A DNA stretch of 64,000 nucleotides from Siderastrea radians (lineage: Eukaryota; Cnidaria; Anthozoa; Scleractinia; Rhizangiidae). Numbering within the stretch: position 1 is the first letter of the stretch; every line of letters starts with the position of its first letter. The stretch is from assembly GCA_964017195.1 (NCBI GenBank), contig OZ024895.1, positions 27,370,875-27,434,874 of the forward strand, read 5' to 3'. Below are positions 34,474 through 63,264 of the stretch, piece by piece. Below the pieces are notes generated by a model. That model worked only from the letters and a program-made list of their open reading frames with translations, was not told the DNA's origin and ran no database searches. The translations under genes were made by a program, and so were the position numbers.

Positions 34474-34523
34474 AAGGGGAAAAAAGAATAACAACAATTA
34501 CAACAACAACAAAGTTAACCATC

Positions 34524-34766: not shown

Positions 34767-34859
34767 GTTGTTGTTGCGTATAAAAAGAGAGAGTTACGTG
34801 AAAAGAAGAAAAAGTGATCACTGGTGTTGTTGGCGACGAGTGAAGAAAAAGAAGGAAAC

Positions 34860-35166: not shown

Positions 35167-35190
35167 CATTTTTGGTGTTTAAAAAAAAAG

Positions 35191-35445: not shown

Positions 35446-35459
35446 CGTTAAAGAAAAAA

Positions 35460-36838: not shown

Positions 36839-36861
36839 AAGAAAAAGAAGAAGAAGAAAAT

Positions 36862-37401: not shown

Positions 37402-37461
37402 AAAAATCAATAAAAAGGTGAAAACGTAAATCAATGTGTGTGTCATTTTTCTTGAACTGCC

Positions 37462-38413: not shown

Positions 38414-39071
38414 GCACCACCACAGGCAATCAAGTGTCACCCGGTACCATTGAAGAAATTTTGGACACGGGGGATCAGTCCCTGATTGACCAAGCCTTGG
38501 ATCAGTTGACGGCGAATGACCTGACCCGTTATTCGGAATCCCTCGCATCTCCTCCCAATGCGCGTGGATTGTTCCATTTTGGGTGGGTAGTCAAGCTTTT
38601 AGAACCCCCTCCTCGGGAGCACAAACACCGCATCGTGGGAGTCCCTGTTTATCTTCAGGAGCGCAAACACCTTGTAGTTGGGGTAGCGCTAGATTGTTGG
38701 CAGCCGTGGGGGCTGGTGGTAATGGTGATTCTGGTGGTCGTGGTCGTGATCGTAACACCCCCCGCGGAAGACCCGGACGTGAACGCGGACGCCGACGGGG
38801 TTGTCGTCGTCCGAGACGTCCTCAACCGCCCCCCTCGTTACCATGGTCGCCTGCTAGACCCTCTCAGCAAGTCACACCTCGAGGACCACCCAGAACCTTG
38901 AATCAAGCGGATTTACAACGTAGATTACGAATTTTGATGCAAGATCAAGAACAGTTTGCCCAAGGACGCGAAATTGCTAATATCACTACCACCAATAGCA
39001 TCGTGACCAGCTATAAACAGGGAGGACGTCTCACCGTGCAAAGCACTTCGTCGCGATTTTCGTCTAGATGA
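38347..39071 (+). pseudogene. Arg/Gly/Pro-rich virion-associated-like protein, one frame change
   Basis: ATG at 38347 (MADDDESRRPPQAYATVSPA); acidic first part with GTIEEILDTGDQSLIDQALD. The frame changes near 38580 into a Ser/Gly/Pro and Arg-rich part (GGRGRDRNTPRGRPGRERGR) and a C-terminal helix LQRRLRILMQDQEQFAQ with a Thr/Ser-rich tail ending SSRFSSR. Such an acidic-helix plus Arg-rich organisation suggests a virion core or scaffold protein; not assigned. Confidence 0.5.
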
Positions 39072-39075
39072 GATC

Positions 39076-39798
39076 ATGACTCCCAAAAAGGAAAAACCAG
39101 TGGTGTCTTTGCTGAATGGTCCGTTGTCCAAACTTAATTGTTTAAAGTTTAAACCGGAACTTTTGCAACGCATGGATTCCTTGCATGCCTTTTACCACAA
39201 ACAGTGGTGGTGTTATCGAAAAATGTTGAATCATTTCAAGTTTTACAATGCCTTGTTGAATGGGATGGCTTTACTGCTGATGGCTGCCGGCATGATTGCG
39301 AGCCCGAGTTTGGAAAACAGTACCTTGGTAGCGTGTTTGACGGCCGTGGGCGCCGTGGTCAAAGGATGGAACGATTTTAAAAAATACAGTTTCAAAGTGG
39401 ACATGAGTCACTTTGCTTTCACCACCTATGCCAAAGCCTTGATCGAATTGAGAACCTATGTGCGTGGGATTCCCTTTGAGGGACTGGAAGGTTTTTTGAT
39501 CAAGATGCGAACGTTGGATGACACCATCATTGATTTTACGCCGCCTTTACCCAAACGGTGCGTGCAAGAATACTCTCGTCATTTTGTGTACCGACAAGTG
39601 GGTGCTCAATGCTACGTGGATGGATGTCATCGTCCCTTGATGTCGAAAAGTTATTGGATGGAAAAGGATAATAAGGTCAATCCTCACAGTCCCACTCTCA
39701 TGCACTCGGTACCATGGCACCCAGAAGAAAACGAAAAAGAAGACGAAAAACCAGTCGACAACAAAAAGGAGGAGGAGGAGGTATTCTCCCCCTCTTAG
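39076..39798 (+). CDS. Two-transmembrane protein, SLATT-like organisation, 240 aa, intact
   Basis: Residues 1-55 are cytosolic-looking and aromatic (LHAFYHKQWWCYRKMLNHFK). Two hydrophobic helices follow, about 57-75 (ALLNGMALLLMAAGMIAS) and 82-97 (STLVACLTAVGAVVKGW), separated by a short PSLEN loop. Then comes a long helical region (MSHFAFTTYAKALIELRTYV, FLIKMRTLDDTIIDFTPPLP) and an acidic Lys/Glu tail. This plan (helix, short 2TM hairpin, long helix) is that of SLATT proteins, pore-forming partners of SLOG and nucleotidyltransferase systems, but it may simply be a viral membrane protein. Its tail overlaps the pX-like gene at 39714. Confidence 0.55.
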   Translation: MTPKKEKPVVSLLNGPLSKLNCLKFKPELLQRMDSLHAFYHKQWWCYRKMLNHFKFYNALLNGMALLLMAAGMIASPSLENSTLVACLTAVGAVVKGWNDFKKYSFKVDMSHFAFTTYAKALIELRTYVRGIPFEGLEGFLIKMRTLDDTIIDFTPPLPKRCVQEYSRHFVYRQVGAQCYVDGCHRPLMSKSYWMEKDNKVNPHSPTLMHSVPWHPEENEKEDEKPVDNKKEEEEVFSPS

Positions 39799-39887
39799 CT
39801 TGCGTCAATAAAAGCAAAAAGGAAGTGGATGGTGGCAAGATTTCAAACGAAATACCCGTCAAGGCTATAAAGAGACTCGCGACATAA
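39714..39887 (+). CDS. pX/mu-like core peptide, 57 aa
   Basis: Not previously obvious because it overlaps the end of the two-TM gene in another frame. MAPRRKRKRRRKTSRQQKGG followed by GGGILPLLAC and a mixed tail ending IKRLAT. The pattern (Arg-rich, Gly run, then ILPLL) is the hallmark of adenovirus pX/mu-type DNA-condensing core peptides, which adintoviruses also encode. Intact. Confidence 0.6.
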   Translation: MAPRRKRKRRRKTSRQQKGGGGGILPLLACVNKSKKEVDGGKISNEIPVKAIKRLAT

Positions 39888-40109
39888 TGAAGCAAAGCAA
39901 AGCACTTCAGCATCTGTTAAACCGGTGAGATTGCAAAGGAGAGCACGAAGGAAACGACGACGTTCTGGTCAAAAAGGTTTTTTTTGCCCTCGAACGTTTT
40001 AACCCCAGCTTTGGTGGGATTGGGCAAAGCCGTGGCTATGGAAACAGACAAATGTATTAAAGGCCTCATCAGCAAAGCCAAGCAACGTCATCGTCGCCGT
40101 GGTCGTTGA
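39887..40109 (+). pseudogene. Small basic core-like protein, broken
   Basis: ATG at 39888 starts a frame that stops after about 14 codons; another frame holds RRARRKRRRSGQKG, and a third, after a T-run at 39978, holds PALVGLGKAVAMETDKCIKG and the end KQRHRRRGR with TGA near 40109. Basic composition at both ends suggests another virion core protein. Reading frame changes at homopolymers. Confidence 0.35.
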
Positions 40110-40116
40110 TGAAACA

Positions 40117-40323
40117 ATGAAGCAAGCAAAGAGAAAAAGAAGAAGAAGAAAAACACAAAAACGTCGTGGTAGAGTCAATGTGGGAGTAAGTCTTTGGTCT
40201 TTGCTGAAAGGAGCCGCCAAAGTCAGGATCAAACACGGCAAGAGTAAACGCTATAAAAGAATGGGAGCCCTGGGTGTGGGAGGTGCTGTTTCTAATTTTA
40301 GACGAAAGCCATGGGAAGTGTGA
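40117..40323 (+). CDS. Small basic core-like protein, 68 aa
   Basis: MKQAKRKRRRRKTQKRRGRV, then NVGVSLWSLLKGAAKVRIKH and GVGGAVSNFRRKPWEV. Intact. Starts a few bases after the preceding broken basic gene; overlaps the next gene start at 40311. Confidence 0.5.
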   Translation: MKQAKRKRRRRKTQKRRGRVNVGVSLWSLLKGAAKVRIKHGKSKRYKRMGALGVGGAVSNFRRKPWEV

Positions 40324-40717
40324 AACGTCTTCGACGTCAATTACCGTTACGTTACGTTACGTTACGGTCTGTGTTACAAGAAGCCGTGAAGAACTCTTGC
40401 AACATGCCAATGTGGATCAAGTCAATGCTGCCAGTGAACTGGTATTAAACCTGCTAAAAAACAATATTTCTGTGACGTCCCCCATCACGGCGCAGCTCCT
40501 TCCCTATAAAAAGGTGCTACGAAACCTGGGTCGTCGCCAACATTCGGTGAAAAAACGTCGTCAGTGGCTCGTCTCGCAAAAAGGCAGAGGATTGTGGCAA
40601 GGTCTTAACAACGTGCTATGTCATGTGTTCGACGCTAAACCTTCCAACGTGGGTGAGCCTTTTGCAAGACGCCAATCGGGAACGAGAGGAGTGGAAAGAG
40701 GAATGTTATTATTATAA
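40311..40717 (+). pseudogene. Conserved Maverick small protein (helical, ending in a Gln-Lys-Gly segment)
   Basis: Starts MGSVKRLRRQLPLRY, then a (GTTAC)n run at about 40344-40366 after which the frame differs. The conserved part is SELVLNLLKNNISVTSPITA, then LPYKKVLRNLGRR, KKRRQWLVSQKGRGLW. Cnidarian and fish Maverick-type elements have a short protein of this kind (Leu-rich helix, K-x-x-R linker, VxQKGG-like end). Its function is unknown to me. Confidence 0.45.
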
Positions 40718-40850
40718 GCATAAATATCAGACGTTTTACCAGGAGCATATGCATATATTGTTCAGTTTACGCCGTGAGACGTGTCGCTCTGAAAAGGACG
40801 GAGAACTCTGTGCAGAGTGTAGCAACACCTCATGGAGGAAGTGTACATGA
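40623..40850 (+). CDS. Hypothetical protein, 75 aa
   Basis: In another frame from the preceding one and overlapping its end. Start MCSTLNLPTWVSLLQDANRE, with a charged aromatic helix (EWKEECYYYKHKYQTFYQEH) and four Cys in the last 20 residues. No family recognised. The last codons overlap the following gene. Confidence 0.4.
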   Translation: MCSTLNLPTWVSLLQDANREREEWKEECYYYKHKYQTFYQEHMHILFSLRRETCRSEKDGELCAECSNTSWRKCT

Positions 40851-41471
40851 TTCCTCAAAAGGATTTAGATCCATTCATTCAATATTACAAGGGAGAGTTA
40901 ACAGAAAATGCCCTGCTTAACAAAGCGGCCACGTTGGCGGTTTAGAAACACGTCTTGTTGGCAGACCCCAAACTCTCTCCGGGCCATCGTCAATGCCCAA
41001 ACCAAACCTCTAAGTCAAGAATTGACCAAGCTGACGAAACGTATACGTCAATTTCCTGGGGGTGCAGGTGCTGGTGCACCTGGCGGACCTCCGGGAGAGG
41101 AAGAGGAGGAAAAAGGGGATTTGGTAACGGGTCCCTTGGAACAATGGTTGAAGCGCATGATAAAAGGCAGTCCATCCACCCCGAAACCGCAAATCACTCC
41201 TTCGGGACCCATCAAGAAAGGCAAAGCGTCGACGAAGGTTCCCGTCAAGAAAGCCACTCCTTCCACCAGTCGAGGAGACGACGGGTGATCTTAGCTCTCG
41301 TTTGGAAGCCATTCGAGAACGTCGCAAGACCCTTGAAAAACAGTTAGCCTCCAGTCCTTGGGCTAAAGGCAAAGGCGCTCGATAAGTGGGACAGTTAAAA
41401 CCCTTGCCTGGGCGGGAAGATTGGGCACGAGGTAAAAAGTTGAGACGGCGTCTGGATTACGACAGTGACTG
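40832..41471 (+). pseudogene. Conserved Maverick protein with TKRIRQFPGG motif, broken
   Basis: MEEVYMIPQKDLDPFIQYYK, LLNKAATLAV, a TAG at about 40943, KHVLLADPKL, then a change of frame to NAQTKPLSQELTKLTKRIRQ, FPGGAGAGAPGGPPGEEEEE and LEQWLKRMIKG. A further frame change near 41280 leads to SSRLEAIRERRKTLEKQLAS; TAA at about 41385 is followed in frame by RGKKLRRRLDYDSD. The block order is that of a recurrent protein next to PLA2 in cnidarian Maverick-type elements. Role unknown; an acidic linker between helices suggests a virion or DNA-binding protein. Confidence 0.45.
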
Positions 41472-41478
41472 AAAAAAA

Positions 41479-41864
41479 ATGAAAACCCGTTCCAAGAAAA
41501 AACCCACCCCAAGGAAAAGGAGGACTACCCGGAGAAAAAAAAAAGAACTCAACGAGGATGGGGTTTCGACGTTCAAAGATGGTTGGGCAAAACCGACATT
41601 GAATATCATTTGCCGGGGTATCAGTACATGGGACCCGGAACTCACTTGGCCAAACGTCTCAAGCGTGGAGATCCTGGCATCAATCGATTGGACAAGATTG
41701 CCAAACAACACGACATTAATTACAGTCATGCCAAGAATTTACAAGACAAGTGGAAAGCCGATACCAAGATGATCAAAGCCATCGATCGTTTACCCGGCAA
41801 GAAAACCATGACGGAACGTGTAGTGAAAAGAATCATACAACCCAAAAAACGTTTGAAATTGTAA
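41479..41864 (+). pseudogene. Parvovirus-type phospholipase A2 domain protein, frame change near start
   Basis: Starts MKTRSKKKPTPRKRRTTRRK. An A-run at about 41537-41545 marks a frame change, after which the frame holds the PLA2 signature: calcium loop YMGPGTHLA, then RLDKIAKQHDINYSHA with the catalytic His-Asp pair, DKWKADTKMI and a basic end PKKRLKL. Parvoviruses use such a domain to leave endosomes, and adintoviruses carry homologs. The PLA2 part itself is uninterrupted from about 41583. Confidence 0.75.
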
Positions 41865-46254: not shown

Positions 46255-46312
46255 GTACTCTTCGCTTATCTCGGGTCGTTCGCAGTTGCAGCGAAGTGCA
46301 TTTACCCTAAAG
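46255..46312 (+). CDS. Candidate signal-peptide exon of the receptor gene
   Basis: Between an AG acceptor (TTTTCAATGAACAG) and a GT donor (CCTAAAG|GTATTA) lies a 58-base segment encoding VLFAYLGSFAVAAKCIYPK, a hydrophobic run with small residues before a plausible signal-peptidase site. The donor phase (1) matches the acceptor phase of the first PA14 exon at 47558. The exon with the initiating ATG was not found. Support is indirect. Confidence 0.35.
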
Positions 46313-47557
46313 GTATTAAAATTACAATGGCATTCATGTTTATCAAGGAATTATCGATTGGTTAAAGTGATTTAATACTGTCTCGTACTTAAATATTTTT
46401 CTAATTCGTTTACTAGCACTACTCCTGTTGTTTTGGTTCGATGATGAAGCGGACTGAGATTCGCCACGGACTCAAAGCGGGGAAATTCAAATTGTTCAAA
46501 TTATTTAGCTAGATATTTTCCATGTAATCCAGATCGTTAATAATAATAAAATACAGTGATAAATACAAAATTGATTACAGTTAAAGCGACCGCACCGCGC
46601 AATTTTTTAAAAGTCGGTTTATCACTAGCGTAGACAATTGATACTTATGGAAACTGATTGCGATATTTAAATGCTTGTAGCACTGAAGAGAGAAGATATG
46701 CTCATTTCATTCACTCATCCCAATCTCAATGTTTATAACTTTTTAAATTGTTCTTGGCAACAACACATTTTATTTTGTACCAAATCAAACCGAACTGGAA
46801 ATAAATCATAAGTAGCGAAAAGTTGCAGAAAATTAAAGCCGGAGATTTTATAGGTCTCGTGACATCCCACCTGCCCATGATTTTGCATTTAAATGTCCTT
46901 AAGTTTGTTTACTTTTCTCTCATTGTTTAATGCTATAATAATACTCAAGCCCGCTGTGAGGCTTCGTAGCTCATCTAGTATTAATTATAAAGGAGACTCA
47001 CTGTGAGACACAATGAGGCCAAGAACTGGTACAGTGAAATATGAAACAAAGTCACGCATCAACACCCTTCTTTTGCTCTGACGAAAATAATCGGTAAATG
47101 AAAGGTTTCGCGTTTGACTCGTTTTATTACCGGCAAAATGACTAAAAACGGCCTGTTATTCTCTCGAAAAGAACTGGCCACATATTGTTGCCTATTTTTA
47201 CCCAAAAACTATAAGTCGACTGGGCACCATTAACCTGCCGTGTGCTGGGCTGTCTGGGATTGTTTGGGTACAAATATGGTGTCCGTTGTAAGCTGAAGAC
47301 TTCGGGAAGAAAAAAGCCGAAGCCATTGCAAAATACAACTGTTTGTAACAACGACATTGGAAGCAGTTTTGATTCTGGAATGAGTTAGCAGAATGGCATG
47401 ACCTTTGTGGAATGGCTACTGGCGAATATCAGCCCGTACTCTCTCTGAGAAACGGAGGGAATTCAAATAATTAAAAAAGGATATATAGTGAGGTTCTTAA
47501 AAAAACATCTTGACATCACCACTTCGCGTTTATAATTTGTAATATCTTTATTTGCAG

Positions 47558-50500
47558 AGATATTCGGCGTCCAAGTCGAGAGCTGGAAAAATACTGGAGG
47601 TTCAGAATTATCTAATCTCGATCCTCCATCAAGCAAGACTTTCATTAATTCACTTGACTTGCCTGGATACCCAAAATTAGAGCATATTCGTCTCCGGCTG
47701 CGAACATACTTCTTAGCACAAGAAACTGGGACCTACATATTTTACCTCACCTGCGATGACTCCTGTGAGCTGAAACTGAGTACAGACGAAAAACACGAGA
47801 ATTTAGTCAGTTTGGTGAATATTACTAGATACACTGACTACATGAGATGGAGAAGGTATAACATTTGGTACAGGATAAAATTATCTATAATTTTAGATTT
47901 ATTTACTCAAGAAAGAACACACTGTGGGAGCTTACATATTATTTAGCTTTGTACCCAGGAGCTCACAACCAACAGGGTGCAGAGATCCGGGATGGCTATG
48001 AGTTTATGAACGGCGAGATTCTCTTCGATATATTTTTTTATTATATATACACAATCTCGGAATCATGAGAAATATTAAGAGACCATAGCAAACTTCCTGT
48101 AAAAAGAAACATACTGTTGGTCATTTTTTTCTGCGGAACTTCTCTATGATATGCGTTGACGACCCATCAGTAGGGAGTTTATCAGCGAGCGATTTGGTCC
48201 GAGGGAGAAGCCTTTCCAGTGAAGTGTTGTGCATATAACCCACTCCTCTTCATCACTCTCTTGCTTCTCCCTCTTGAACATACTGGAAAAGGCCAAAGCA
48301 TGCAAACAAAATTGCTGTCCGCTGGTCGTCCCGAGCTTGCTGACACACCGAGTATCGTCTAACCACCACATTATGCGAAAATTTTTTTTAAAGAATAAAT
48401 GAGTAAAACTGTTCATCGCTTACTTGACTATTCTACTTGTGTTTAGAAAGTACTCCAAGGAAGTGAGACTGTCCAAGGATCTTTCATATTTCTTGGAGGC
48501 GTTCTTGACTCAGAATGCAGGACCACATCACATGACCGTTGGGGTAAAGCTCCCAACTGGGAGCTACAGTAGGCCTGTTAGCAATGAGTACCTGGTTAAA
48601 TATGCACCTCCAGGTGCGAGAAACGAATCATACTACAATGCATATGTTATGAAATAAAAAGAAGTGTGGCTAGAAGACCCAATTTATAAGATTTTAGTTT
48701 ACAACTGGTTCCCAGTGGGCTGGCCTAAAATAGTATGACACCTGAACGATAGCAGTGCAAGTACAAACAGACGAAGTGCAGTTGAATAATCATTAGACTC
48801 TTAATAGTAAATAAACAAGTGTGATTAAATAAATATCAATAAAACACGCATTGAATAATTATTCGATCATTACTATTGCATTATTAGTATTCAGCAATCC
48901 TGATGAATTTTTTGCCATAAATTTTGCACAAAACTTTTAAGAGCGTCGGCACTTTGGCAAGGCATGCGATGTCCGTATAAGGCAACACGCAGGGTTATTC
49001 GCTGATGAACCGTAGAGATTTTAGTAATATCTGGTAATTCATATATGTGACTTGACCTCATATTTCGTTAGAACTAGAATTAAAAAAAGAAAAGGAAGTT
49101 GAAGGAATCGAAGAATAATTCTTACCGTACGTTTGACCAATGAACAGATGGCGTCTGCTGTTGTAGGTTAACACGTACTATAGCTTTCATCCGCTTAGTT
49201 CTTTGCTTCCTGTCTTTTCTTACTTACACACTTATGCATTTATTTACTAACTGCTCAATTGTGTGCCAGTGTTTCCCGGTAGTTTCCTTTATTTATTTAC
49301 CCTTAAAGGAATGTCAAGTATACTTCTTTGGTTAATTTGTTTGGCCTTTGTTTTATTTTTTGTATAGGGGCATTTGGTGACGCTCCAATGGGAGACTGGG
49401 GAGCATGGTCCCAATGCAGCAGGACCTGTGGGGTGGGAACTCAGTCACGTAATCGCTCATGCCTGAACCCCCCGCCTGTATATCGGAAAGGAAGTACCAC
49501 CGAAACGAGAGTTTGTCAACCTTTGAAGCCATGTTATGGTAGGTTAAAACATTTTAAAAGGCACTTGGTCAAAGCACTAGGCAAACAATCCTTTATCTAA
49601 AATAAAATAAAATAAATGGAAATGAAATAAAATCAATAAAATATTGATAAGTCGGTAAAGCATGATCGCCTGGGTTGCAATGACATTGACTGACGTTACG
49701 ACAACCTGAGCGGAGGTTATCGTCGGAAATCATCATCACTCTGATGATGAGTTCCGCTCAGGTTGTCGAAACGTCAGTCAATGACACCAATAAAAGTCCT
49801 ACTCAGGACTACACTCACCCGGTCATACTTTACCGTCTTATGGTATGAACCCTGGGTTCAAACCATTTACGCTGTAAGTCATTCTTCTTTTTCATTTTTC
49901 TCCCATCTTTAGCTACTTGAAATGAATTTATAGCTATCCCCTCACTTCATCTTTTGCCTGAGTAAAGCCTAAATCTATAAACATTTGTTATTTAGTAGAG
50001 TTCTCCGGACGTAGTCCACTCTCTAGAAAACAAGAATATAGTGGAATTCTAAAGTCGTGATCCCTACACCAAGCGCATATACCGTATCTTTTCGATTAAA
50101 CTAAACCTCGTAGACTGGCCCGGCGTTAATTCCGAGCCTGGCGTTTATCAAAAAGGGAGTCAGATTTTTCATCATTTTTTATAGCCTTTAAGAGACCAAA
50201 AATAAAATTCACTAAAATTACAGCAGAATATAGGGTCACATAAGTAAAACGGGAGTATGAAACGTCACTGATTTTTTCTGTAGTCGATAAAATCCAAAAC
50301 AAGGCGGGAGAATTGAGGATTCAGCAGGTTGTAGAGTACATTACGTCAACTTCCTTTAGTTCGAATGAGTGCAATAAATTCAACTGAAGTACTGTAGTGG
50401 TTCTTGAACCTTTTTTAAATTGCTATAAGTAATTTTTGACGAGAATCAGTAAGATGCAGGTTCAGTTTCAAATAAACGCCGGACCTCAAACATGTCAATC

Positions 50501-51299
50501 TCAATGTCGTCTCCCAAGTTTACCATTGAGTATCGGAGATGTGCACTCTACCGAGAGGTCTACCGAGGTTGATTGAAAACTGAGCTGTCAGTGGCCATCC
50601 CGAGTCCCTTTTATACCAGAACTTTCTCTTTAAGTTGGACGTACAATGAATGTCCGACGCATACAACTGGCCCCTAGAATTTTAAGTGGACCCTTTCTAT
50701 AGTCATTGGCACTCCCAACTTTTTCTACAACCTGAAAGCGTTTTTTAAAAACGTTTCCTACTGCTCCTTGCTTCCTTCTAACCATCTGCTTTCTCTATGA
50801 TTCCCTGTCAGAGTTGCTTGCGTCTCTCAATAGTGTTTATTTCAGTCCCCTGTAGCTCTCCCATGAACCTGACAGCGCGTAACCATTGGAGTCCAAGTAA
50901 GATTCGTGTTACTTGGAAAGCACTGCCTGCACCCTGCTGGCAAGGGATCACAGGCTACTTCGTACGTCTAAAAGTCAAGGAGACTGCGCGCATGGAAAAC
51001 AAGACGTGGAGTAGGGAATATTTTGTAGGGCCCTTATCAAGAGGTGTTCTTCTAGAGGGCCTTCACACATACACAACTTACAGCCTACAGGTCGCTGCTT
51101 TGAATGGCAAAGGCCTTGGACCATACAGTGAGGCTATTCACGTAGGTCAGTAAAATAATCGTAATTGATTTCAATTAAACTGGAAGACAATATTATGGTT
51201 TGTAAGACGTACGCTGGCACCTCCACACTAATTATATTTGTGTTCAAATTTAGCCTTAACGGTATCACGGAACCCGTTTTAGCAATAATAATAATAATA

Positions 51300-51343
<44 letters not shown>

Positions 51344-54300
51344 ATGTAGCCATCCAGTGGCACGCTAGGGTGTAACAATACCAATGAGAAATCTTCCTTG
51401 GCAATTTATTTGTTACAAAACAACAATAACAAAAACGTTTTGTTCAGTTTGACCTTTGTTACAAAACCTCTAGTTCAATTTGACCTTTGTTACGAAACAA
51501 ACAAAAAAACTTTTGTTGCATTTGACGCGATTTGAAAATCGAAAGATTGCCTGCTTGATAAAAAATAATTACAGTATCTTATTATTTATATTATTATTAG
51601 TCATAATGCCGAATCTGATTTTATAGCGACCTGTCGATGCCCCAGGAGATTTCTTGTGAATTGGATTCAATCTCCGCCTCTGTGTTTCCAGAACAGCAAA
51701 GGAAATCCTGCGGGAATGTTACCCAAACTGCTGCCTGATATGATAACCAACGTGTGTGGCAAGTGCCATGGCCATAGACAGACTGCGATAATATTTAAAG
51801 AAGAGAAACACAGTATTCACAACATCACTAGCACGCTAAGTGGACACACTGAGTTGAATTTGCCTATCAGTATGGCGCCTAATCTGCCGTTTGTGAGGGA
51901 GGAGTGGGTGTTTCTTCCCGTGAGAGAGGTGGAGGGGATTGCTGTGCTTATGAGAAAGCCCAGTACCGCAGATTACGCTGCCGTGTTAGGATCCTCTGTG
52001 ATGCGCCGCTGGCCAGTTTTTGTAATAATGCTTGCATTACATTTCTTATTCGGCTTGGTAGCGTGGAATTTGGTGAGTTTAATCAAAAGGCACACTTATC
52101 ATCAATATCCCACAGCACTTTAGGATAGACAATTGGAAATTATTTCATTTAAGTGGGCGCTCTGGATAACAATAAAAAATAAGGTGGTTATATCTTTTCT
52201 TTCAACTGACTGACCGGTAATATTAATGCCTTTTGGCTGATAGTTTGTCTAAGCTCAGAAGACGAATAGTTTTTTATTATGAGAAGGAATTATAAACGCA
52301 CTAGAGGACACAAGCGCAGCGTGTATGAATAAATATTCATTGCACAGGAGTAACCGTGAAATAGACCAGGAAAAACAAAATAAAACTGTTGCTCGTTGAA
52401 AGTTAATAACGACTGAAACCTGACCGAGATTGGGCCTTCTTATCTAATAACAGAAATGTTTATTTAGCCTAAAACTTGCTGGAACATCAAAAAGAATTAT
52501 TATTCTAACTGAAAGAAAAATCTGTGGGGGCAGTTTACACATATTTCAATTCATGCAAATTACGAACTTTTTGACTGATTTGTGCTGCATTTTAGCAGTT
52601 TTTAAATATAAGCTTAAATATCTTAAAATCGCAGCCACCTGGGAAGCTCAATGTACATTACGAATGTTTTGCTGTCATAAAAGAACTTTCAACTGAAAAG
52701 AGAAAGTGTTAAGTTTTATATTTCTTGAAATATCGGAAAAAATTGCAGAATGACTAAAATCAGCCCGTAAAAATTTCACTTGAAAAGGGTCTTACAGATT
52801 TTCCCCTAATTTTGCATACAAGTTGTGTAGGTCGGGTAGTTCAAATAGTTCAAGTTTCGTCATGAAGTGTCCGACTAGTTTTCGAGATATTCAACATTAT
52901 TTAAATTGAAGGGCTGTCCATTGCTATTGCTATGGTGACAGCTGTTGCTAAGAAACCAAAGAAAAATAAACTTTGGTCATATGTTGAAAAGGTGGTGTAC
53001 TATCAAGGAAATCGAAGTTTATCTTCTATGCGAAATCTTGATTTCAAAAGATACACTCCAAGGCCAAAACAAAAACTGTTACGAGCCCCTTAAATATTGT
53101 CAAGTATTCAGAGAGCTTGAGAGAATTAAGTTAGTGATCATCATTTCTTCGGTTTGTTCTCCTTTTAATTGTAGGAGAGAAGTGCGAACCCAGCTCAGTT
53201 TCCCCCGCGTTTTACGCGAGGATGGTCACAAGGTTGGTGGTCCGCTGCCGTTTCCATGACAACTGTCGGGTAAGCAACATAGTGCTTGCATCGTTTGTAT
53301 AAGGCCAGTGTTTATTCCCGTGGCCGGCAATTTAGACTAAACTGGGTATATTTTCTTGATGAAAATAGCATTTGTAAGTTTTGGTCATTTGCCGTATTTT
53401 TCTGCTTCAGGACTTCAGTGAGACTATAACTTGGAATCTAACTTAATTTCCTTTAATTATTTTGGAACTCTTATTTGTCAACAAATTAAGGCAGAAATCA
53501 CAAAAATAGTGGGTGACCTTTGCTGCTCCAAACACTTTTTCCATGTAACCTTGGAATCCGTTACTAGTTCTATTTCACATATATCTCTTGTCTTTTGGGG
53601 TATTTAATCTCGTAAGATAACTGAGGATATTTTTCCTTGTACCTTGCGCTGCTCCATTTGGAATAAGCTACATTGACAAAACGAGCATAAGCCGCGTTAT
53701 TTATCTCTATCAATCAGTATATTACTAGGCTGTTGAGTCTAAACGTATGCCCAGTTCTGACCAAAACGTGATTCTCCAACGCAGATATGGTGATTCTTAT
53801 CCAATAACTGTGCCTGGACGACTGCTTGCCATCCTCTCTGTTCTGGTGGGCGTGGTTATGAATGTGTTATTTGTATCAACATTAACGTCATCTCTGACTG
53901 TATTTGTCGTTGAATTGGCAGTCAATCACGAGACAGGAAGTAAGGTCAGTTTAGACTTCATTGAGGTCCAAATTCTTTTAAGCAATTGACAGTTGAGGAC
54001 CGAACTTCTCATATATTTTCCATATATTTTCCATATTTTCTATATATTATATGTATGCATTAGTGCAGGCCAGAACTCTACTGGGCCCATGAAAATTTGT
54101 AGTTTCGATATTTTTTAAAAACGAACGCTGTTACCACGGGGTAAACGGTGGCTTTTCATCCTCCGTCTAGAGACAGATGGGAGTTTTTGTGGAACTAAAG
54201 AGTGAGTTGTCGCTCTCCGTCTCTTCCCCTTTTAGACTGTATCAAGCCAGACAATCCCATTTAGGTTTTCGTTCACAATGGCTCGACGAATACTCCACTG

Positions 54301-57300
54301 CGGCGGTAAAGTTTAGGCGCGATGTAAAACTGTCGAAATCCCCATGTAAACTGGAAAGCACTAATCTCTTTGTATTTCTCGGAACACCACGAAGTTTAAA
54401 AGATTTCAGCACAATCTCTGGTTATGGATAAACGTATGGAGTAATCCATTTTAACTTTTTTGTTTGAACTCAAGTTCACTTACGGAGGTTCATTGGCTTA
54501 CAGGTTGGATTTGTCAGTGGTTCAGTGGAACATCCCTTGGGCATGCGCATGAATGGAAGCAAAGGGGTCACGAGTGAGTGAAAAACGTCATTCTAGCTAC
54601 TGGAGGACTTAATCCAGACTACAAATCTCTAGTCAGGCCAATCCTGTAGTATGCTGCTCCAGTCTGGTGCCCTTTCTTAGTCAAGGGCATAGTTTTGCAC
54701 TACGAGGAACGTTGCGCCATTTTAAAATGGTCACCATTAGAAAAACGAAGATATTTTTTGTATTTTTCTCTAATCGAGTGCTACAAATGTGTATTTTCTC
54801 TAAATAACCTCGATTTTCAGGACTTCTTCCAGTTTGCCTCGAAAAGAACCAGAAGCAACGATAGTTATGTTACAATTTAAAGCATCTAGTTGTAACTGTT
54901 ACAAATATTCATTTTTTATTAGAATTGTAAAACAATGGAACGATTTACCAGAGTGGGTTGTCGGGGCGGGAAATCTTGCACGTTTTAAGCGATCTTTAGA
55001 ATCATTTTTAAATATCTCGTAGTATTGTCTTTTTATTCCTTACTAGTTTTATTTTTAACTATCCTTTGTATGTAAATTTTTAACATAAGATTTTTAATAT
55101 TTATTGAATATTTTTAAGACTTTTCTTTCGGGAGATTTTACATAGGGCCAACCTCTTACAGTCAACGCGCTTTACGCATGAACGTTCAATTTCAAATATT
55201 CATCGATTAGTTCATTCTTCGATTTCATTCTTCGAAAAATTTAGCGATTCTTTGAAACTTGGATTCTATGTTCAAAACACTATTTTAGTTATTCGAAATT
55301 TTTTTCGTAACATCGTAAAAATAATTCAAACTTTCCGAACAGAACTGAAAAGTTAGTTTTTTTAGCTCAGTTTTCCGGTTAATGTCACGCGTGATATTTT
55401 TATTGTTTTCAAGCCCGGCGCAAAAAATGGCGAGAACATAAAGCCGACAAAAATAACCCGTAAAGAAAAAATTGACAACAGCAATCCTTAGAAAGAAAAT
55501 GGGAATCCCGACACTTCGAGTTTGGACCCGAGTTCGAGTTCGAGTTCGAGTTAAGAATCGGGGTGTTTTCCATGCAATGGTGATAACAATAGGGTGACAG
55601 GCCTACACAACTCCTATACACGTGTAATAACCAGTCCACAGTTTGGCTCGAACGAGTAGGTCTTTTAGGAATCTGCCCCTTTTGAATGCGACCACAGGGG
55701 GATCTTAAAATATCTTGTTAAGCAAAGGTTGTTGCTGAATTAAATGCCAGTTTTGCGTAAGTATTTGCTTTAAATTAGGCACTGATGGACGATATTGTGG
55801 GACGAAAGGCAAGATTCGCGTGTTTTGTTTACGCCTTTGTTGAAGGGCAAGTTTTCTGCCCTCAAAGTTAATCTCAGCGAGGATTGTTGAAATCAGAGTT
55901 TCGGGGTACCCTCTTTCCTTGAGATGTGTTTTAAAGTTTGAAACTGCAGTTTGGAACGTAGTTTCTGAGGAGTTTGTCCAGAGAAGCCTAAGTGCTTCGC
56001 CTTCAGTGAAGCCCTTGTTGACCCCTGGTGGGTGGGAACTAGAGAAATGTGTGTACTGAAATGTTTCAGTTGGTTTGAAATGCATTTTTATGTCTAATAT
56101 AGACCCGTTAGCGAATCTTTCGCTTTTGTAAACGCTTGTGTCGAGGAACGTAGTATCTGTGTCAGATACTTCAGCCATAAACTCGATGGTGGGGTGGTGG
56201 CTATTTGCTTGTTCCATGAATTGCGTGACCTCGTCTTTGTTTGTATTCCAGATCGAGAATATATCAACAATATACCTTTTCCAGACGAGTGGTTTTACAA
56301 CGCTACGGTGTAGGATTTGTGATTCTACAGTCCCCATAAAAATGTTGGCACAAGCGACTGTTTCCATGTTGGATTCAAATTTGCCCCCAAAATTATATGC
56401 CTCTTCGCTTGCGTATGTCACCTTATGCTTATCGCACGTGTGAACAACGTTGTGCTTATTCTTGTTTTTATCTTATGTTTGCGTTGTAGGTGAAAAAGAA
56501 AGCCCATTTCCATTATTGACCGTATGTACAGCAGTAGGTTATGCTTTTCTTTTAAAATTTCAATTAGTACATGTCACCTCTTTTGTAGGTTTTGCAACAA
56601 AAGGTAAACGCTTATGGCAATAACAAGATTGAATGTTGCAATTGGTAATAAACGGAAACTATAAAGCAATGAAATGTAATGTTATTTAAGTGAAATGTAG
56701 GCACGAAAAAAAGAAGGAAAAAAGAAGAAAGGAATACACTGATAAGGCCAATTTGTAATTCATTCATCTGTTACCTATAGGCACACTAAAATTAAGGGAA
56801 CACTTCTCCTTTTCCCCAGGTTGTTCCGTGATGGAGGTTCCGCTGTAGTGCATGTACTGTTAGAGGACGGCTTGTTGATTAATAAAAGTTTGCATTTTTC
56901 ATGCACTGAATAGGTGGATAACACTGATTTCAAGTTACTTTTTAGCTGTGATTCGGTCAGTACTTCACGCCATCGCAAGGGCGTCGGCGGAATACGAATT
57001 CTAAGAGGTGTTTTTTCAAGGTATTTTGTCATTTGCTGTTTTGTACTTTAGGTTGGTGAAATGCGTGAAGATGAACTTCTGAAAAATCGACAGTCCGTGT
57101 GCATGGCTAGCACCAGTCCCCAACCTTGTATTCTGAAAAATGCGTCCTTCACTACAAATACCTTCATCGATTTCAGATACAATTGAACTAACTTCTATCG
57201 GTTATTATCGATTATCGATTTCATCGGGCTTTACATCAGGTTTCGCAGCGTCTCTTTTGCTCTTTTTCACGGTTATTTACAGATAATTGTGAAAATTTCA

Positions 57301-60300
57301 TTGAATTGTAACTCGAACTCGAACTCGAACTCGGGTCCAAACTCGAAGGCTCTTCACTCCCAAAGAAAATCCAAAGGAGTCTCTAATTTTAACAAGGCAA
57401 CTTATTGTTTGGCTCGAGGTTTCGTGGCTTAATCGGAAACCCGCAGAATATATAAACAACAACCGCCACAATTTTATTGTCGCCGCGGTGTGTTGCGGCC
57501 GGTGTACGTAGATTTGCACATGATCGGAACATGAAAGTTTAGGTTTCCTAACTCCAAATGGCAAGAAATTCGCTTAGGGACTTTTACGATCCTGGTAAAC
57601 CTTTGCCTTCTAATGCAAGGAACGAAATCGTTAACCTTTTCAATGCTGGATTGGGGTTGTCAGATATTCCATGGAAACACGGAACACGAGAGTGCCAAAA
57701 GGAGCTGTTCATAAAATCGTCCGACACTATTCAGTCCACGCGACGACTCAACCATTTTCTTGTGGAGGTAAAGATCCTTGATAACGGATGACATCCCTTT
57801 CCGGAAGTAATTGATTAGCACTTTTTCCGAGAGCGCCATGATGTTGACGATTTCTAATGTTACGTGTGAACTTTCTAAGAATCAATTTCGTTCATCGAAA
57901 AACACTCGTTATCTTTCAATCTGTCTACAAGAATACGGTCATCCAATTAAGGAAAGGAATGCGCACGTGAAGAATGCAAGGCTTCATTCCATGATCGTTC
58001 ATGCGTGAACCGCGTTGACTGTAAACTCCCTTTTCAAAGCATTCTTTGTATATTCACCTTTGTTTTTTGATGCTTTGAATAAACGTATGTATGTATGTAT
58101 GGATCGTGTCTAAAAGTACACACGAGTGACCACGAGTGACCACGAATGACCACGAATGACCACGAGTGACCACGAGTGACCACGAGTGACTACGAGTAGA
58201 CCACGAGTGACCACGAGTGACCGCGAGGAGACCACGAGTGACCACGAGTGACCACGAGTGACTACGAGTGACCACGAGTGAGATTGCATCAAAATATTTT
58301 GCTGATGTCATGATGACGTCATCATTACATCATTTTATCAAATAATCACTATTTCACGGCAAACTGACCGTTTCTTGAGACCTTAATACCTGGATTCGAC
58401 ATTTCTGCCATTTCTGCCTGAATGGGGGAGGAGCTAGGGGACGGACTGGGAGGGGGGATGGGGTACAAACTTCCCGCCACCCGCACCCTCTCGGTTCCCG
58501 CCACTTTTCTTAACTTTTTCTTCCCGCCCTTTTTCCGCCTCCTTTACACCTCCCTCCCTCTTTTCTACCCGGAGTCCCAAATTCTCTTAAAGGTAGTTCA
58601 CTTTAATAAATTTGCTAGTTTCCATTTAACTATAGGCGGGATAATCTCATCGGCGGCCTAGTTGCTTACATTTGTCATTCTACCAGTATGTGTTTAGCGT
58701 CCTGCAGGATTTGCGCGACTCGCAAACGATTTGGACGTACTCACAGCTACATTATTGCCTGTGAAAAAGATAAATAAAAAAAAAAATTAATTACTTTGAT
58801 TTCCTCTTTCTAGACTGTTGTAGTTAACAAAGTGGTTTGATCACAGGCTTACCATCCTCTGTTTGTGTAGTGGGCTGTGCATTCAATGGCCGTGTCGGTT
58901 TATCAAATTAGCAGAGCTAAACCCAAAATTTAGGAGTTTTAAAACTGAGGAAAATGAAATAAAAAGTCATAAAATTGCTGCCATGGTGTTTTGATTTGTG
59001 TTTCTGTGTTTATTTTGGTGATTTAAGAAAGAGAACTTGTTCTCTTTCTCTACTTTTGAGCGAGTCCGACCGTTACTTTTCAAACATCGCTTTCGCGAGC
59101 CTTAATCACCAAAATAAACACAGAAACAGAAATTAAAACACCATGACAGCAATTTTATGAGTTTTTATTTCATTTCCCTCAGTTTTAAAACTCCTAAATT
59201 TCGGTTTTAGTTTTGCTAATTTGATAAACCAACACAGTCATTACAAACGCACAGCCCACCACACAAACCGAGGATGGTAAGCCTGTGGTTTGATTGTATT
59301 ATTTTGCTGATATGAGTAATTGATAGCGTAAACCACTACAATCATTTAACAATTAAAAGAATTATGTCATATTACAGGGGAAATTGGGATCTCACATATA
59401 AGAATCATAAAGCATTAAAGATTGTTGAAATTGTCATTCACTACCTGTCAATTCTGTGCTAAGTTTTGAGTGGAAAAAGTTTTCGTTAAAATATTTCCTT
59501 AAATCACGTACTTTCACAGAAAACCTTTTCGTTAATTTCTATATTTGCTATTTTCACATTGTTTCTTTATTTTTTCGCCCTTGATCACTGGTAGCCTTCG
59601 GGGGGGGTAGGGGGTAGGGATGGAGGTGGACAGAATTTGGGACGAAAAAATATATACGGAACGACTGATCCTTACGGCAGTTAAAGAAACGAAGACACAG
59701 AAGACGAAATACGTAAAGCAAAAAATTGTATGAAACAAAAAATTGCCCGATATTTCGGTTTGCAAAACAAACCTTCTTCAGGGGCTACAAAAGTAGCCCC
59801 TGAAGAAGGTTTGTTTTGCAAACCGAAATATCGGGCAATTTTTTGTTTCATACAATTTTTTGCTTTACGTATTTCGTCTTCTGTGTCTTCGTTTCTTTAA
59901 CTGCCGTAAGGATCAGTCGTTCCGTATATATTTTTTCACTTCAAATGTTTCACTGATCCAGGTCTATTTAAGATCCGGCAACTCTCAACGCCTTGCCGCT
60001 GTGGTCTTTCCAGTTTATAGAATTTGGGACTCTGGGTAGAAAAGAGGGAGGGAGGTGTACGGGAGGCGGAAAAAAGCGCGGGAAGAAAAAGTTAAGAAAA
60101 GTGGCGGGAACCGAGATTAAAGGCTTTGGGTGGCAGGAAGTTTGTACCCCCCCCATCCCCCCTCCCTGTCCGTCCCCTAGCCCCTCCCCCATTCAGACAG
60201 AAATGGCAGAAATGTCGAATCCAGGTATTAATATCTGAAGAAAAGGTCGGTTTGCGATGAAATAGTGATTATTTGATAAAATGATGTAATGATGACGTCA

Positions 60301-61396
60301 TCAAGACATCAGCAAAATATTTTGATGCAATCTCACTCGTGGTCACTCGTAGTCACTCGTGGTCACTCGTGGTCACTCGTGGTCTACTCGTGGTCACTCG
60401 TGTGTACTTTTAGACGCGATCGTATGTATGTATGATGTATGTGTGTATGTATGTGTGTATGTATGTATGTATGTATGTATGTATGTATGTATGTATGTAT
60501 GTATGTACAGTACTCTTCACAACTACAGATTGCTAGTTACTCCTGAAAATATTTGCCAGATTTGTCAAACGTACATTTACAAAGTAGAAAGTGCTCGAGA
60601 AAGTGAGAATTTGACTGAGGATAGGCAGTTAAGTAAAGTAAAACACCACCCAAATGAAACTGGCTTCGTTGGAGCTTCCCAGGATGATTAAGGCAGTGGT
60701 TGTTATCAGTATTGAGAATCGACAAGAAGGCAACACGAAGCTAACGTGTTTTCATTACAGTTAGTTATGTTCACTTTGCCCACCCTAAACCGGCACTACC
60801 TTTCTCTCATCCTGTACTGTGGTTATATATTATTGATTTCGTTCCAGGCATCTCCTATCCAACGAGGGACGCCCTACTGCAGGGGCTAAAGTCAGGCGCA
60901 TTAGATGGTGCATTGATCGACGTTTTAACACTGGACACATTTAAAAAGGACTTGAATGATTCCGTGTTCGAAGTGGCTAAAATCATACCCAGGAAATTTC
61001 ATTATGGAATTATTCTAACTGGCGATGCAAGACACCTGTTAAAAGACTTAAAAGAATACTTGCGATCAATATCGATCACAAGTTTACCAAAGCAACAAAA
61101 ATTAATCTTTCCAGCAAAAGAGGTAAGCGTTTTGATTCCAGTATGCATTTGTTCATCGAGAATGACGTGCCTGTAGACGTAAAATGTTTGGTATTAAAGC
61201 CTACAACGTGGCCTCAAACCTTGAAATAGTTCACCTTTCTCTTTCTAGATAGCTTTTCAAACTATGTCTGTATTAGACTCGACAGAAGAGGGCTTTGTTC
61301 CTGTGAATGGAGACATGTTAAGCAAAATGCATAAATGCGTATTTCGACGTATTATCCGTTTCCTTCCTTCCATCCATCCGTCCTTCCGTCCATCCT

Positions 61397-61439
<43 letters not shown>

Positions 61440-62160
61440 TCATCGTGACTTTGAACAACCTACAGGAGCCAAAGACTTGTAGAATTGTAAAGCGACGATC
61501 ACACGTCAAACTAATGTTGGCGAACTCATAGTCGTGTTGGCAAACTCAAATTGGTGTGTGGAGAGGACACAACAACATGTTGGCAAACTGTTGGGAAAAC
61601 GTTGGCGAGAACAGAGACAAGTTCTATTTGTCGCTATCAGTTTGCCAACATGTTGTTGTGTCGTTCACACACACCAATTTGAGTTTGCCAACCGTGAGTT
61701 GTGCAACATTAGTTTGACGTGTGAAGGCCACTTCAAACGTTCCCCTACAGGCCCGTCTTAACTTTATGAAAAGTGACTGTTAAAACACAGGCTCAGCCTT
61801 CAAAACTGTTTCCTGCTGCCGAGAGCTTGGACGCGGAGAATTTTTAAAAGATGTCTGATATTCAGTAGAGCAATTCACATTAGAGCTTGGAAGTGATTAT
61901 TATTAACTTCAAAATAACTTCCATATTTTTTCCTACTACCACTGGAATTGTTTGTAGGAAATTCGTCCCGGAGGAACCAAACCAACCGAGTCTGGCAAAG
62001 AAGAAGTGATTCCATTCTTTGAACCAGGGAATGTGCTCTTTCAGCGGACTGTTAAGGTCACAGCAATAGCCCTCCTTGTGTCCGCCATCAGCGGTTTTCT
62101 CTACCATATGATAAGAACAATGTTAAAGGGCAAACACGGTAAGTCGGCAAGAGCAGTTAA

Positions 62161-62193
<33 letters not shown>

Positions 62194-62393
62194 AACAATA
62201 AGAATAATAATATTAGGTTTCTCGGCTTGTATTTATTTGGCATTTTAGAGGGAATTAGTGCTTTATATTCATTTAAGCAGAAGTTAGGGTTTTTTCCCCT
62301 CGAAAATTAGCTGCATAGTCTACGTTTGCGCCCTATGCATGCTATTTAGGGACATAGCATAGAAACGTCTTGTACTGCAATAGTAATAACAAA

Positions 62394-62439
<46 letters not shown>

Positions 62440-63264
62440 GTTTTTTTTCCGAAAATTAGCTGCATAGGCTACGTTTGCGCCCTGTGCATGCTATTTAGGG
62501 ACATAGCATATATACGTCTTGCACTGCTATAATATTAATTAAAACAAGAAGTGGAGCTTTTGTCTATTAACTGCATCAATCGGCTCAAGTCTGAACTTGC
62601 CAGCGTCATCATGTCTCAGCCTCTGTTGACGCCTCTGTTACACTCAAAAAAGTTGAATCTTTCGGATGAAAAAGAAATGGCAATCACTAGTGATTGCATT
62701 AGACAGTTCAACTTTTAAAACTAATATCGAAAAGAGAAGTTAACAATTCGCTTCTTACTTTAATTCGCTTGACGTCGTTCAACAATTTGAAAGTTTCAAA
62801 GTTTTCTCTTCAAAACTGGGCTACGGGCTATGACTGATGTTTACATTGACAGTGTTATCGTTGAATGTTAAAAGAACCTTTTTCCTACTCTTTGTTTGGG
62901 AATATTCAATGTTTTAATTTCAACGTTGTTTACGATGTAACTTTTGGTTCTTGATTTGTCTCAGTAAATGGACGATTGGACAGACAGGTGCACACAGGAT
63001 GATTTTGAACAGATAGGTGCAATTTGTGTGTCATTATTCTCCACAGAACGACCGAAAAGTCCACGGAAAGAACTAGCTGCAGTCAAAATGGAGATGAGGC
63101 AACTCTTGGATGACTTTCACAACAGAATAAAGCAGAGAATTTTTGCCCTTAAAATCAAACATAGACAGGAACTCTTACATTTCAGAGAAATTAGAAAAAA
63201 ACTTTATGTTGTAACGCTATCTTACCGTAGAAAAGATTCATCTGAAATAGAGCAACAAGTTTAA
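47558..63264 (+). CDS. Ionotropic-glutamate-receptor-like channel: PA14, TSP1, FN3, ligand-binding domain and K+-type pore
   Basis: Exons, phases matching throughout: 47558-47855 and 48447-48613 (PA14/GLEYA-like: AQETGTYIFYLTCDDSCELK, then HHMTVGVKLPTGSY), 49368-49538 (thrombospondin type 1: WGAWSQCSRTCGVGTQSR, six Cys), 50846-51145 (FN3: KIRVTWKALPAP, YSLQVAALNGKGLGPYSEAI), 51627-52072 (LBD S1: MLPKLLPDMI, FVREEW, VEGIAVLMRKPS; TM1 VFVIMLALHFLFGLVAWNL), 53175-53269 and 53785-53944 (pore helix and filter joined as WWSAAVSMTTVGYGDSYP, TM3 LLAILSVLVGVVMNVLF), 54504-54573, 60848-61122 (LBD S2: LKSGALDGALIDVLTLDTF), 61249-61338, 61958-62138 (TM4 VTAIALLVSAISGFLYH) and 63047-63264 (basic cytoplasmic tail ending SSEIEQQV, TAA). 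It lacks the usual amino-terminal LIVBP-like domain. Expected to be a plasma-membrane, ligand-gated channel. The filter predicts K+ selectivity, as in bacterial GluR0. The 61249 exon is the least certain. Confidence 0.85.
49681..49786. repeat. Foldback with Penelope-end-like sequence
   Basis: TGACATTGACTGACGTTACG at the left pairs with CGAAACGTCAGTCAATGACA at the right; inner arm ACAACCTGAGCGGA / TCCGCTCAGGTTGT. The right half has CTGATGATGAG...GTCGAAACGTC, reminiscent of retroelement 3' ends with hammerhead-like boxes, but with abnormal spacing. Lies in a receptor intron. Confidence 0.55.
51284..51342 (+). repeat. Microsatellite (AAT)n(ATG)n
   Basis: About six ATA/AAT units followed by about sixteen ATG units, in the intron before the ligand-binding exon. 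Confidence 0.9.
54590..55025 (+). pseudogene. LINE ORF2 C-terminal fragment
   Basis: Encodes NPDYKSLVRPIL, YAAPVWCPFLVKGI, KWSPLEKRRYFL, FASKRTRSNDSY, and ends FIRIVKQWNDLPEWVVGAGN, FKRSLESFLNIS. This is the usual C-terminus of CR1/jockey-like ORF2 proteins (WNxLP...F+..L). Several frame changes. Lies in the large receptor intron. Confidence 0.75.
55515..57345. repeat. Region bounded by inverted (TCGAGT)n blocks, with Penelope RT fragment inside
   Basis: GAGTTTGGACCCGAGTTCGA at about 55517 with several GAGTTC units is the reverse complement of 57303-57345 (GAACTCGGGTCCAAACTC). Between them lies the minus-strand Penelope fragment. The two blocks may be terminal repeats of one inserted unit of about 1.8 kb. 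Confidence 0.5.
55705..56421 (-). pseudogene. Penelope-like reverse transcriptase, C-terminal 238 codons
   Basis: A single open frame without stops: VWKRYIVDIFSIWNTNKDEV (the catalytic DD box reads VD, so one Asp is replaced), ANSHHPTIEFMAEVSDTDTT, HFKPTETFQYTHFSSSHPPG, then a terminal block PSVPNLKQILTQNWHLIQQQ. N-terminal RT part and GIY-YIG are missing. The best preserved of the PLE fragments in the window; antisense in the receptor intron. Confidence 0.8.
57558..57790 (+). pseudogene. Paired-domain-type transposase N-terminus (Tc1/mariner-like), fragment
   Basis: MARNSLRDFYDPGKPLPSNA, then RNEIVNLFNAGLGLSDI, then in another frame GAVHKIVRHYSVHATTQPFSCGG. This is the helix-turn-helix (PAI-like) start of a Tc1/mariner-like transposase as found in marine invertebrates, which resembles the Pax paired domain. 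It breaks off after the linker. Confidence 0.5.
58843..59287. repeat. Inverted repeat within the large palindrome
   Basis: Left arm ACAGGCTTACCATCCTCTGT, right arm end GAGGATGGTAAGCCTGTGG; the arms extend about 190 bp (TTTATCAAATTAGCA / TGCTAATTTGATAAA, CTCCTAAATTT / AAATTTAGGAG) with a spacer of about 60 bp containing GAGAAAGAGAACTTG. Non-coding foldback. Confidence 0.75.
59644..59938. repeat. Near-perfect palindrome carrying two hammerhead-like boxes
   Basis: Arms of about 145 bp are almost identical in inverse orientation, meeting at GGGGCTACAAAAGTAGCCCC. The right arm contains CTGAAGA (59800), a perfect stem GGTTTG/CAAACC and GAAA (59825-59828), the box order of a hammerhead core; the left arm contains the mirror on the minus strand. 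Looks like two Penelope-type ends joined head to head. Confidence 0.7.
61383..61438 (+). repeat. Microsatellite (AAGC)n
   Basis: About eleven AAGC units just after the 61249-61338 exon, preceded by a (CCATCCGT)-like degenerate run. Confidence 0.9.
61499..61723. repeat. MITE-like element with ACACGTCAAACTAATGTTG ends
   Basis: Left end ACACGTCAAACTAATGTTG; right end CAACATTAGTTTGACGTGTG. Inner arms TTGGCAAACTCAAATTGGTG / CACCAATTTGAGTTTGCCAA and ACACAACAACATGTTGGCAA / TTGCCAACATGTTGTTGTGT. Spacer of about 35 bp. Receptor intron. Confidence 0.85.
62295..62530 (+). repeat. Tandem duplication of about 85 bp around an (AAT)n microsatellite
   Basis: GAAAATTAGCTGCATAGTCT...GCATGCTATTTAGGGACATA at 62301-62370 recurs at 62450-62520 with few changes (GAAAATTAGCTGCATAGGCT). 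The (AAT)n run at 62393-62438 lies between them. A shorter (ATA)n run is at 62162-62195. Confidence 0.8.

Follow-up and report, generated by a model that had tools for sequence, protein, structure and literature searches.

A putative potassium-selective, glutamate-receptor-like channel gene of a stony coral and its relatives across Cnidaria

In the genome of the stony coral Siderastrea radians we analysed a 64-kb stretch of DNA, here called the window, whose plus strand carries at about 46,256-63,264 a gene of ~17 kb that combines the architecture of an ionotropic glutamate receptor (iGluR) with the selectivity filter of a potassium channel. We consider it probable that this gene encodes a subunit of a tetrameric iGluR-type channel that is ligand-gated, K+-selective and hyperpolarising and carries a modular ectodomain of adhesion type. 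The order of the parts, the fourth transmembrane helix (TM4) and the conserved filter can be read from the sequence; the tetramer, the K+ selectivity, an amino-acid-like ligand and an inhibitory effect are suggested by analogy with the receptors GluR0 and AvGluR1. By the same analogy, the receptor probably quiets cells, whereas its textbook relatives excite them.

Gene structure and the split filter

Using homology (tblastn) and splice sites, 12 exons could be joined into a single open frame of 811 codons with a terminal stop. GT donors and AG acceptors are present at every junction (11/11 each), and the three frames of the join contain 59, 39 and 1 stops, the last being the terminal one. The joined protein has the order PA14-like domain, TSP1, FN3, first half of the ligand-binding domain (S1), TM1, pore helix, TTVGYGD filter, TM3, second half of the ligand-binding domain (S2), TM4 and C-terminal helix. 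The original prediction had set the gene at 51627..54573, which was too short and ended inside S2. Downstream, the remainder of S2, TM4 and the C-terminus were found at 60848-61122, 61958-62138 and 63047-63264, and upstream the FN3, TSP1, PA14-like and linker exons extend the gene back to about 46256. Neither a start-codon (Met) exon nor the 5' border of the linker exon could be located at the window locus. The gene has the following parts:

46256..46312, plus strand: N-terminal linker exon, probable end of a signal peptide; 5' edge uncertain
47558..47855, plus strand: PA14-like domain, exon a (tblastn, 41-66% identity, five homologs)
48447..48613, plus strand: PA14-like domain, exon b (tblastn; AG/GT borders; phase agrees)
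49368..49538, plus strand: thrombospondin type 1 domain in one phase 1-1 exon (Pfam TSP_1, 35.6 bits, cut-off 21.6)
50846..51145, plus strand: fibronectin type III domain in one phase 1-1 exon (Pfam fn3, 43.2 bits, cut-off 25)
51627..52072, plus strand: S1 half of the ligand-binding domain and TM1, phase 1-0 (S1 profile comparison, paralogs)
53175..53269, plus strand: pore helix and filter up to TTVG, phase 0-2 (sequence, phases)
53270..53784, plus strand: phase-2 intron within the first Gly codon of the filter (GT-AG)
53785..53944, plus strand: filter GYGD and TM3, phase 2-0 (Pfam, pore tree)
54504..54573, plus strand: start of S2, phase 0-1 (tblastn, 50-70% identity, five homologs)
60848..61122, plus strand: remainder of S2, phase 1-0, carrying the conserved acidic residue Asp612, as numbered in the joined protein (S2 profile comparison)
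61958..62138, plus strand: TM4, phase 0-1 (hydropathy peak; tblastn, 41-57%)
63047..63264, plus strand: C-terminal helical exon, ending in the stop (tblastn, 48-61%; reading frame)

The filter itself is divided between two exons. Exon 53175-53269 closes with ACTGTCGG, followed by a GTAAGC donor, and exon 53785-53944 opens with ATATGGTGAT after a CAG acceptor; the phase 2 to phase 2 join of both pore exons yields MTTVGYGDSYP. This in-phase split of TTVGYGD had been predicted exactly, and the GT-AG borders, the open frame and the paralogs all agree with it. Since all 11 introns follow the GT-AG rule, a single frame stays open and the same split recurs in 20 of 20 paralogs with located exon edges, it is not due to chance. 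Furthermore, the homologs P0002 (906 amino acids) and P0005 (774 amino acids) are listed on contigs of 3,250 and 2,646 bases. The window gene, at 17 kb, is much longer, as would be expected if these two records were spliced transcripts.

Upstream of the channel, the linker exon has a weak tblastn match to residues 20-35 of homolog P0003 (46270-46317, E 0.62), a GT donor and a phase that agrees with the following exon. Among the five homologs scanned, the Pfam PA14 domain scored over its cut-off in P0007 and under it in P0002 and P0003. The TSP1 and FN3 exons are both of phase 1-1 and the S1 exon begins in phase 1, a layout that would be expected under exon shuffling. Within the channel, the Pfam family Ion_trans_2 matches TM1-TM3 with 43.4 bits (cut-off 22.5). 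A hydropathy plot of the 565 joined residues that run from TSP1 through TM4 has three peaks and no more, namely TM1, TM3 and TM4; the filter falls between TM1 and TM3, and no voltage-sensor helices appear before the pore. TM4 has a counterpart in the model of homolog P0006 (helix 454-487).

Relation of the ligand-binding domain and pore to GluR0

Exon order, homology and S1/S2 profiles agree on the order S1-TM1-P-TM3-S2 (P, pore). Tests of single sequences against profiles were weak for S1 and S2 alone, with best independent E-values of 0.25 and 0.026 against 2.8 and 1.4 for the best among 400 shuffled controls, and therefore a comparison of profiles with profiles was needed. Built from 31 sequences including the window, the S1 profile of the family matched GluR0-like S1 at 93%; the S2 profile, built from 27 sequences and likewise with the window, matched GluR0-like S2 at 94.6%. 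In line with this, the predicted model of a homolog has the bilobed fold of amino-acid-binding proteins in S1 and S2, with GluR0 as the closest structure; the comparison comprised the top 1000 Foldseek chains, and all 50 listed rows concern the ligand-binding domain, the pore lying outside the comparison. Together, the profiles and the predicted fold of the homolog show the clamshell at the level of a model.

In the pore tree, the window family groups with bacterial GluR0-like receptors and apart from 15 K+ channels, and the K+ channel pores were separated in both pore trees (100/99). These trees used 30 and 25 of 88 GluR0-like rows; the latter omitted the coral paralogs L013 and L014 and the K+ channels P0021 and P0029. 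As to whether the family goes back to horizontal transfer or to an ancestral K+ receptor, the pore tree did not reject a single clade of the cnidarian K+ receptors and canonical iGluRs (approximately unbiased test, p 0.374), and in a core tree built with a quick method a lone canonical row, with a long branch, fell within the GluR0-like ones. The proposed iGluR-type identity held, with a ligand-binding domain of GluR0 type flanking a K+-filter pore on either side and an additional TM4; the treatment as a single gene did not, as the gene belongs to a cnidarian family that has expanded and whose upstream domains vary.

Relatives across Cnidaria and in the same genome

Of three protein searches, the first and third scored the 8,000 and 7,994 candidates with the most shared words, respectively. 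The first search returned eight close relatives with 52-60% identity, of which the three with a named organism are from the stony corals Acropora palmata, Desmophyllum pertusum and Oculina patagonica, followed by bacterial GluR0-like receptors (E down to 3.7e-16) and then by K+ channels; GYG was kept in 8/8 of this homolog set. Matches in Porites, Desmophyllum and Stylophora came from the second search. The third gave 252 matches at E<=1e-6, of which the best 120 were examined and 114 were new. Among the matches listed, all 31 rows with a named organism are cnidarian and comprise stony corals, Nematostella, Actinia, the octocoral Dendronephthya, Hydra, Hydractinia and the scyphozoan Rhopilema. 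A disrupted filter in homologs had been sought as a refutation, and the filter was kept in all 65 listed new matches of at least 350 amino acids (63 with TTVGYGD, one with TTLGYGD and one with TTVGFGD). The remaining 49 of the 114 are shorter, and 44 of these 49 are without the filter; the 44 are probably single-exon fragments. In the source databases, the relatives are mostly named uncharacterized, hypothetical or potassium-channel-domain proteins. The introns, the fusion with PA14, TSP1 and FN3 domains, and the occurrence across Cnidaria rule out bacterial contamination.

The ectodomains vary strongly. A scan of 22 members found fn3 in seven, TSP_1 in six, PA14 in three, CUB and Ig in two each and F5/8C in one, and for many members of ~500 amino acids the database annotation lists channel families only. 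FN3 occurs twice in the full-length homologs P0002, P0003 and P0007, once in the window gene and not in P0005. As alternatives before the S1 exon, the relatives have CUB-Ig, F5/8C, SEA-like plus FN3, or nothing. From this we infer gene duplication together with swapping of N-terminal domains before the S1 exon. In P0041 (Nematostella LOC5501882) and P0043 (Dendronephthya LOC114531609), the same channel core follows CUB and Ig, without TSP1 and FN3.

A core-based search of the coral genome (805 Mb, 439 contigs) gave at least 65 matches, with at least 30 S1-like stretches (window included) on seven contigs. Besides the window gene we read 21 paralogs, chosen by S1 match, namely C10 and 20 of the other 28 S1-like places. 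In 21/21 the pore-helix exon ends with [TSA]T[VL]G, and in 20/21 the following exon begins with YGD, the remaining one (L013) having FGE. The Gly codon is split GG|N with GT and AG in all 20 paralogs with located edges (not located in L025). S1 was detected in 21/21 and S2 in 18/21. The ratio of non-synonymous to synonymous substitution rates (dN/dS) was 0.08-0.51 in the 14 computable of 18 comparisons (six pairs), with some dS near or above 1; in these comparisons the paralogs are under purifying selection. L014 has an atypical stretch at the expected place of TM3. The second exon of L013 (from 2363 of the reversed locus) reads GFGE instead of GYGD and is a candidate for an altered filter.

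Further receptor-like loci with a K+ filter were seen in the same genome, namely L006 (1477-1669), L007 (1426-1825), L004 (reverse strand), L115 and L116. Read by eye and splice edges aside, these five have YGD and a TM3 such as FTAAITSAVTV, which seems nearer to that of bacterial GluR0-like receptors than the TM3 of the window gene does. Canonical iGluRs are present as well, with 90 exon-level Lig_chan matches, not all of them canonical. The two that were read (L113 and L114) have GQSAD and QQGGD pores, STYTANLAAF in TM3 and no K+ filter.

Ligand residues and proposed mechanism

In GluA2, Arg485 of S1 and the acidic residue 705 of S2 hold the amino acid backbone (PMC6307864). The corresponding S2 Asp occurs in 60 of the 64 rows of the family and aligns with an Asp of GluR0. 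The S1 Arg is present in the window gene (Arg421), in P0002, P0003 and P0005 and, by eye, in the paralog C10, with a spacing that is off by one residue relative to the bacterial rows. Because the S1 Arg is missing from many members, the ligand chemistry may vary among them, and glutamate is no more than a candidate ligand. For the window gene, though not for every member, an amino-acid-like ligand is plausible from these residues.

We envisage an extracellular stalk of PA14, TSP1 and FN3 that would lead to a two-lobed clamshell formed by S1 and S2. Binding of the ligand would shut the clamshell and pull TM3, and the pore lined by TTVGYGD would open. K+ efflux through the open pore would then hyperpolarise the membrane. 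S2 is followed by TM4 and a C-terminal helix, as in eukaryotic iGluRs.

Alternative explanations

Several observations weigh against a ligand-gated, K+-selective iGluR-type channel. On the joined window protein, the Pfam family Lig_chan reaches 10.3 bits, under its cut-off of 30.8, which is a database threshold and not a structural definition; P0002, P0003, P0007, P0031 and P0033 score 23.5-27 bits against the same cut-off, Lig_chan was found at E<=0.01 in 22/22 relatives scanned, and PF00060 stands in the database annotation of many relatives. Where animal iGluRs have a gating motif of the SYTANLAAF type in TM3, the window gene reads STLTSSLTV. Of the mismatched profile controls, the one that set coral S2 against GluR0 S1 reached 56% over 29 columns, which points to a short lobe motif shared by S1 and S2; the other control gave 0.1%. 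Bacterial GluR0-like rows were part of both structure-model alignments (8/16 and 7/71) and could steer the fold. Both pore trees have 86 columns and carry a few-columns warning, and the tree with 30/88 rows also a long-branch warning. In place of the S1 Arg, P0004 and P0006-P0009 have Gly, and most paralogs, as judged by eye, have other residues. Finally, some channels with a GYG filter, such as HCN, are not strictly K+ selective.

The alternative that survives best, unlikely as we think it is, is a K+-selective channel of iGluR build that works without a small diffusible ligand, either constitutively open or gated through its ectodomain by sugars, matrix or cell contact. The loss of the S1 Arg in many members would fit such a channel, as would the large adhesion-type ectodomains of the window subfamily and the different ones in others. 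It is opposed by the S2 Asp in 60/64 rows and by the short channel-only members, which share the same core. As this residue is conserved and the short members have the same core, the clamshell and not the ectodomain is the constant part.

We give very little credence to a non-conducting or regulatory subunit, or to decaying copies in which the filter was retained by chance. FGE for YGD in L013 and the atypical TM3 stretch of L014 could be taken in this sense, but the 65/65 retained filters in the long new matches listed, the purifying selection in the computable paralog comparisons and the full open frame of the window gene argue against it.

That the gene is an ordinary K+ channel, of Kv or two-pore type, with added adhesion domains and no iGluR kinship is hardly credible. 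Ion_trans_2 is indeed the best Pfam match of the pore, and the 60 sequences listed in a single-sequence search of the PDB are K+ channel pores, but the order S1-TM1-P-TM3-S2-TM4 already counts against it. The hydropathy plot is without voltage-sensor helices. The Kv-channel reading is ruled out by the pore trees, in which the pore joins the GluR0-like channels and not the 15 K+ channels, and by S1 and S2, which lie on either side of the pore and resemble those of GluR0.

Comparison with known receptors and possible significance

The receptor AvGluR1 of the rotifer Adineta vaga is reportedly the subject of studies by Janovjak in 2011 and Lomash in 2013. According to a review in EMBO Rep, GluR0 is glutamate-activated and K+ selective, with the filter TXVGYG and two transmembrane helices but without TM4, and AvGluR1 has a eukaryotic architecture with a K+ filter (PMC12332018). 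The coral gene shares the TTVGYGD filter and the S1-pore-S2 order with bacterial GluR0-like receptors (Slr1257, Nostoc 2pyy), which have the closest ligand-binding domain by profile and fold and whose pores lie on one side of the tree with the coral family. It differs from GluR0 by TM4, a large ectodomain and many introns, and the identity of eight GluR0-like rows to P0006 is 18-24%. With the AvGluR1 type, as described in PMC12332018 and PMC12226733, the gene has in common the eukaryotic architecture with TM4 and a K+ filter; AvGluR1, however, belongs to a rotifer and not to a cnidarian, and the PA14-TSP1-FN3 ectodomain is that of the coral gene.

The canonical iGluRs of Cnidaria, for which the accessible part of Ramos-Vicente 2018 (PMC6307864) gives the classes AKDF, NMDA, NMDA-Cnidaria and epsilon, have the order S1-TM1-P-TM3-S2-TM4 in common with the coral gene. 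Animal AKDF, NMDA and epsilon receptors have SYTANLAAF and a Q/R/N-site pore, whereas the coral gene has STLTSSLTV and TTVGYGD instead. Kv and bacterial voltage-gated K+ channels share the filter sequence and the pore-helix pattern with the coral gene but lack its clamshell domain. No cnidarian K+-filter iGluR was found in the accessible parts of the open-licence literature, including PMC6307864 and PMC12226733, most subscription papers and preprints lying outside this search. The sole paper found that names both GluR0 and Nematostella mentions GluR0 once in its accessible text, for the filter and the +4 aspartate. It is a fair label to say that a K+-filter iGluR as such has precedents in GluR0 and AvGluR1 and that the phylum-wide cnidarian version is new.

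We tentatively suggest, as a serious possibility, that these genes form a Cnidaria-wide, unnamed class of fast, inhibitory, ligand-gated iGluR-type K+ channels that silence cells directly when amino acids or contact signals are present, with neither chloride nor G proteins involved, and that the class is a relic of a K+-selective ancestor of animal glutamate receptors. If this is true, one coral genome has some thirty gene places of such a class, and the ligand specificity of the clamshell in combination with swappable adhesion ectodomains would permit the direct silencing of cells. A K+-selective origin of the excitatory glutamate receptors of animals rests, in the accessible part of PMC12332018, on GluR0, one rotifer protein and synthetic chimeras. 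A cnidarian family that has both the eukaryotic TM4 and the complete K+ filter, next to canonical receptors and nervous systems, makes this transition testable in Hydra and Nematostella. With such a class, inhibitory signalling in Cnidaria would gain a route through ligand-gated K+ channels; a 2026 study of that signalling, as far as its accessible part goes, has chloride channels as its subject (PMC13335744).

Repeats and mobile elements in the window

The intron between the S2 exons contains nested large inverted repeats at 58106-60402 of the window, with 252-nt arms that are 95% complementary and 154-nt arms that are 97% complementary around a 4-nt loop. In the same intron, the minus strand has an open frame at 55705-56472 that resembles a reverse transcriptase fragment. 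On the plus strand, gag-pol-like frames at 19303-23501 resemble those of a Ty3/gypsy long-terminal-repeat retrotransposon. The gene set at 31533-41864 of the plus strand resembles that of a Maverick/Polinton-type element, with frames that look like a chromodomain integrase, capsid-like, protease-like and packaging-ATPase-like proteins and, at 41469-41864, a phospholipase A2-like protein.

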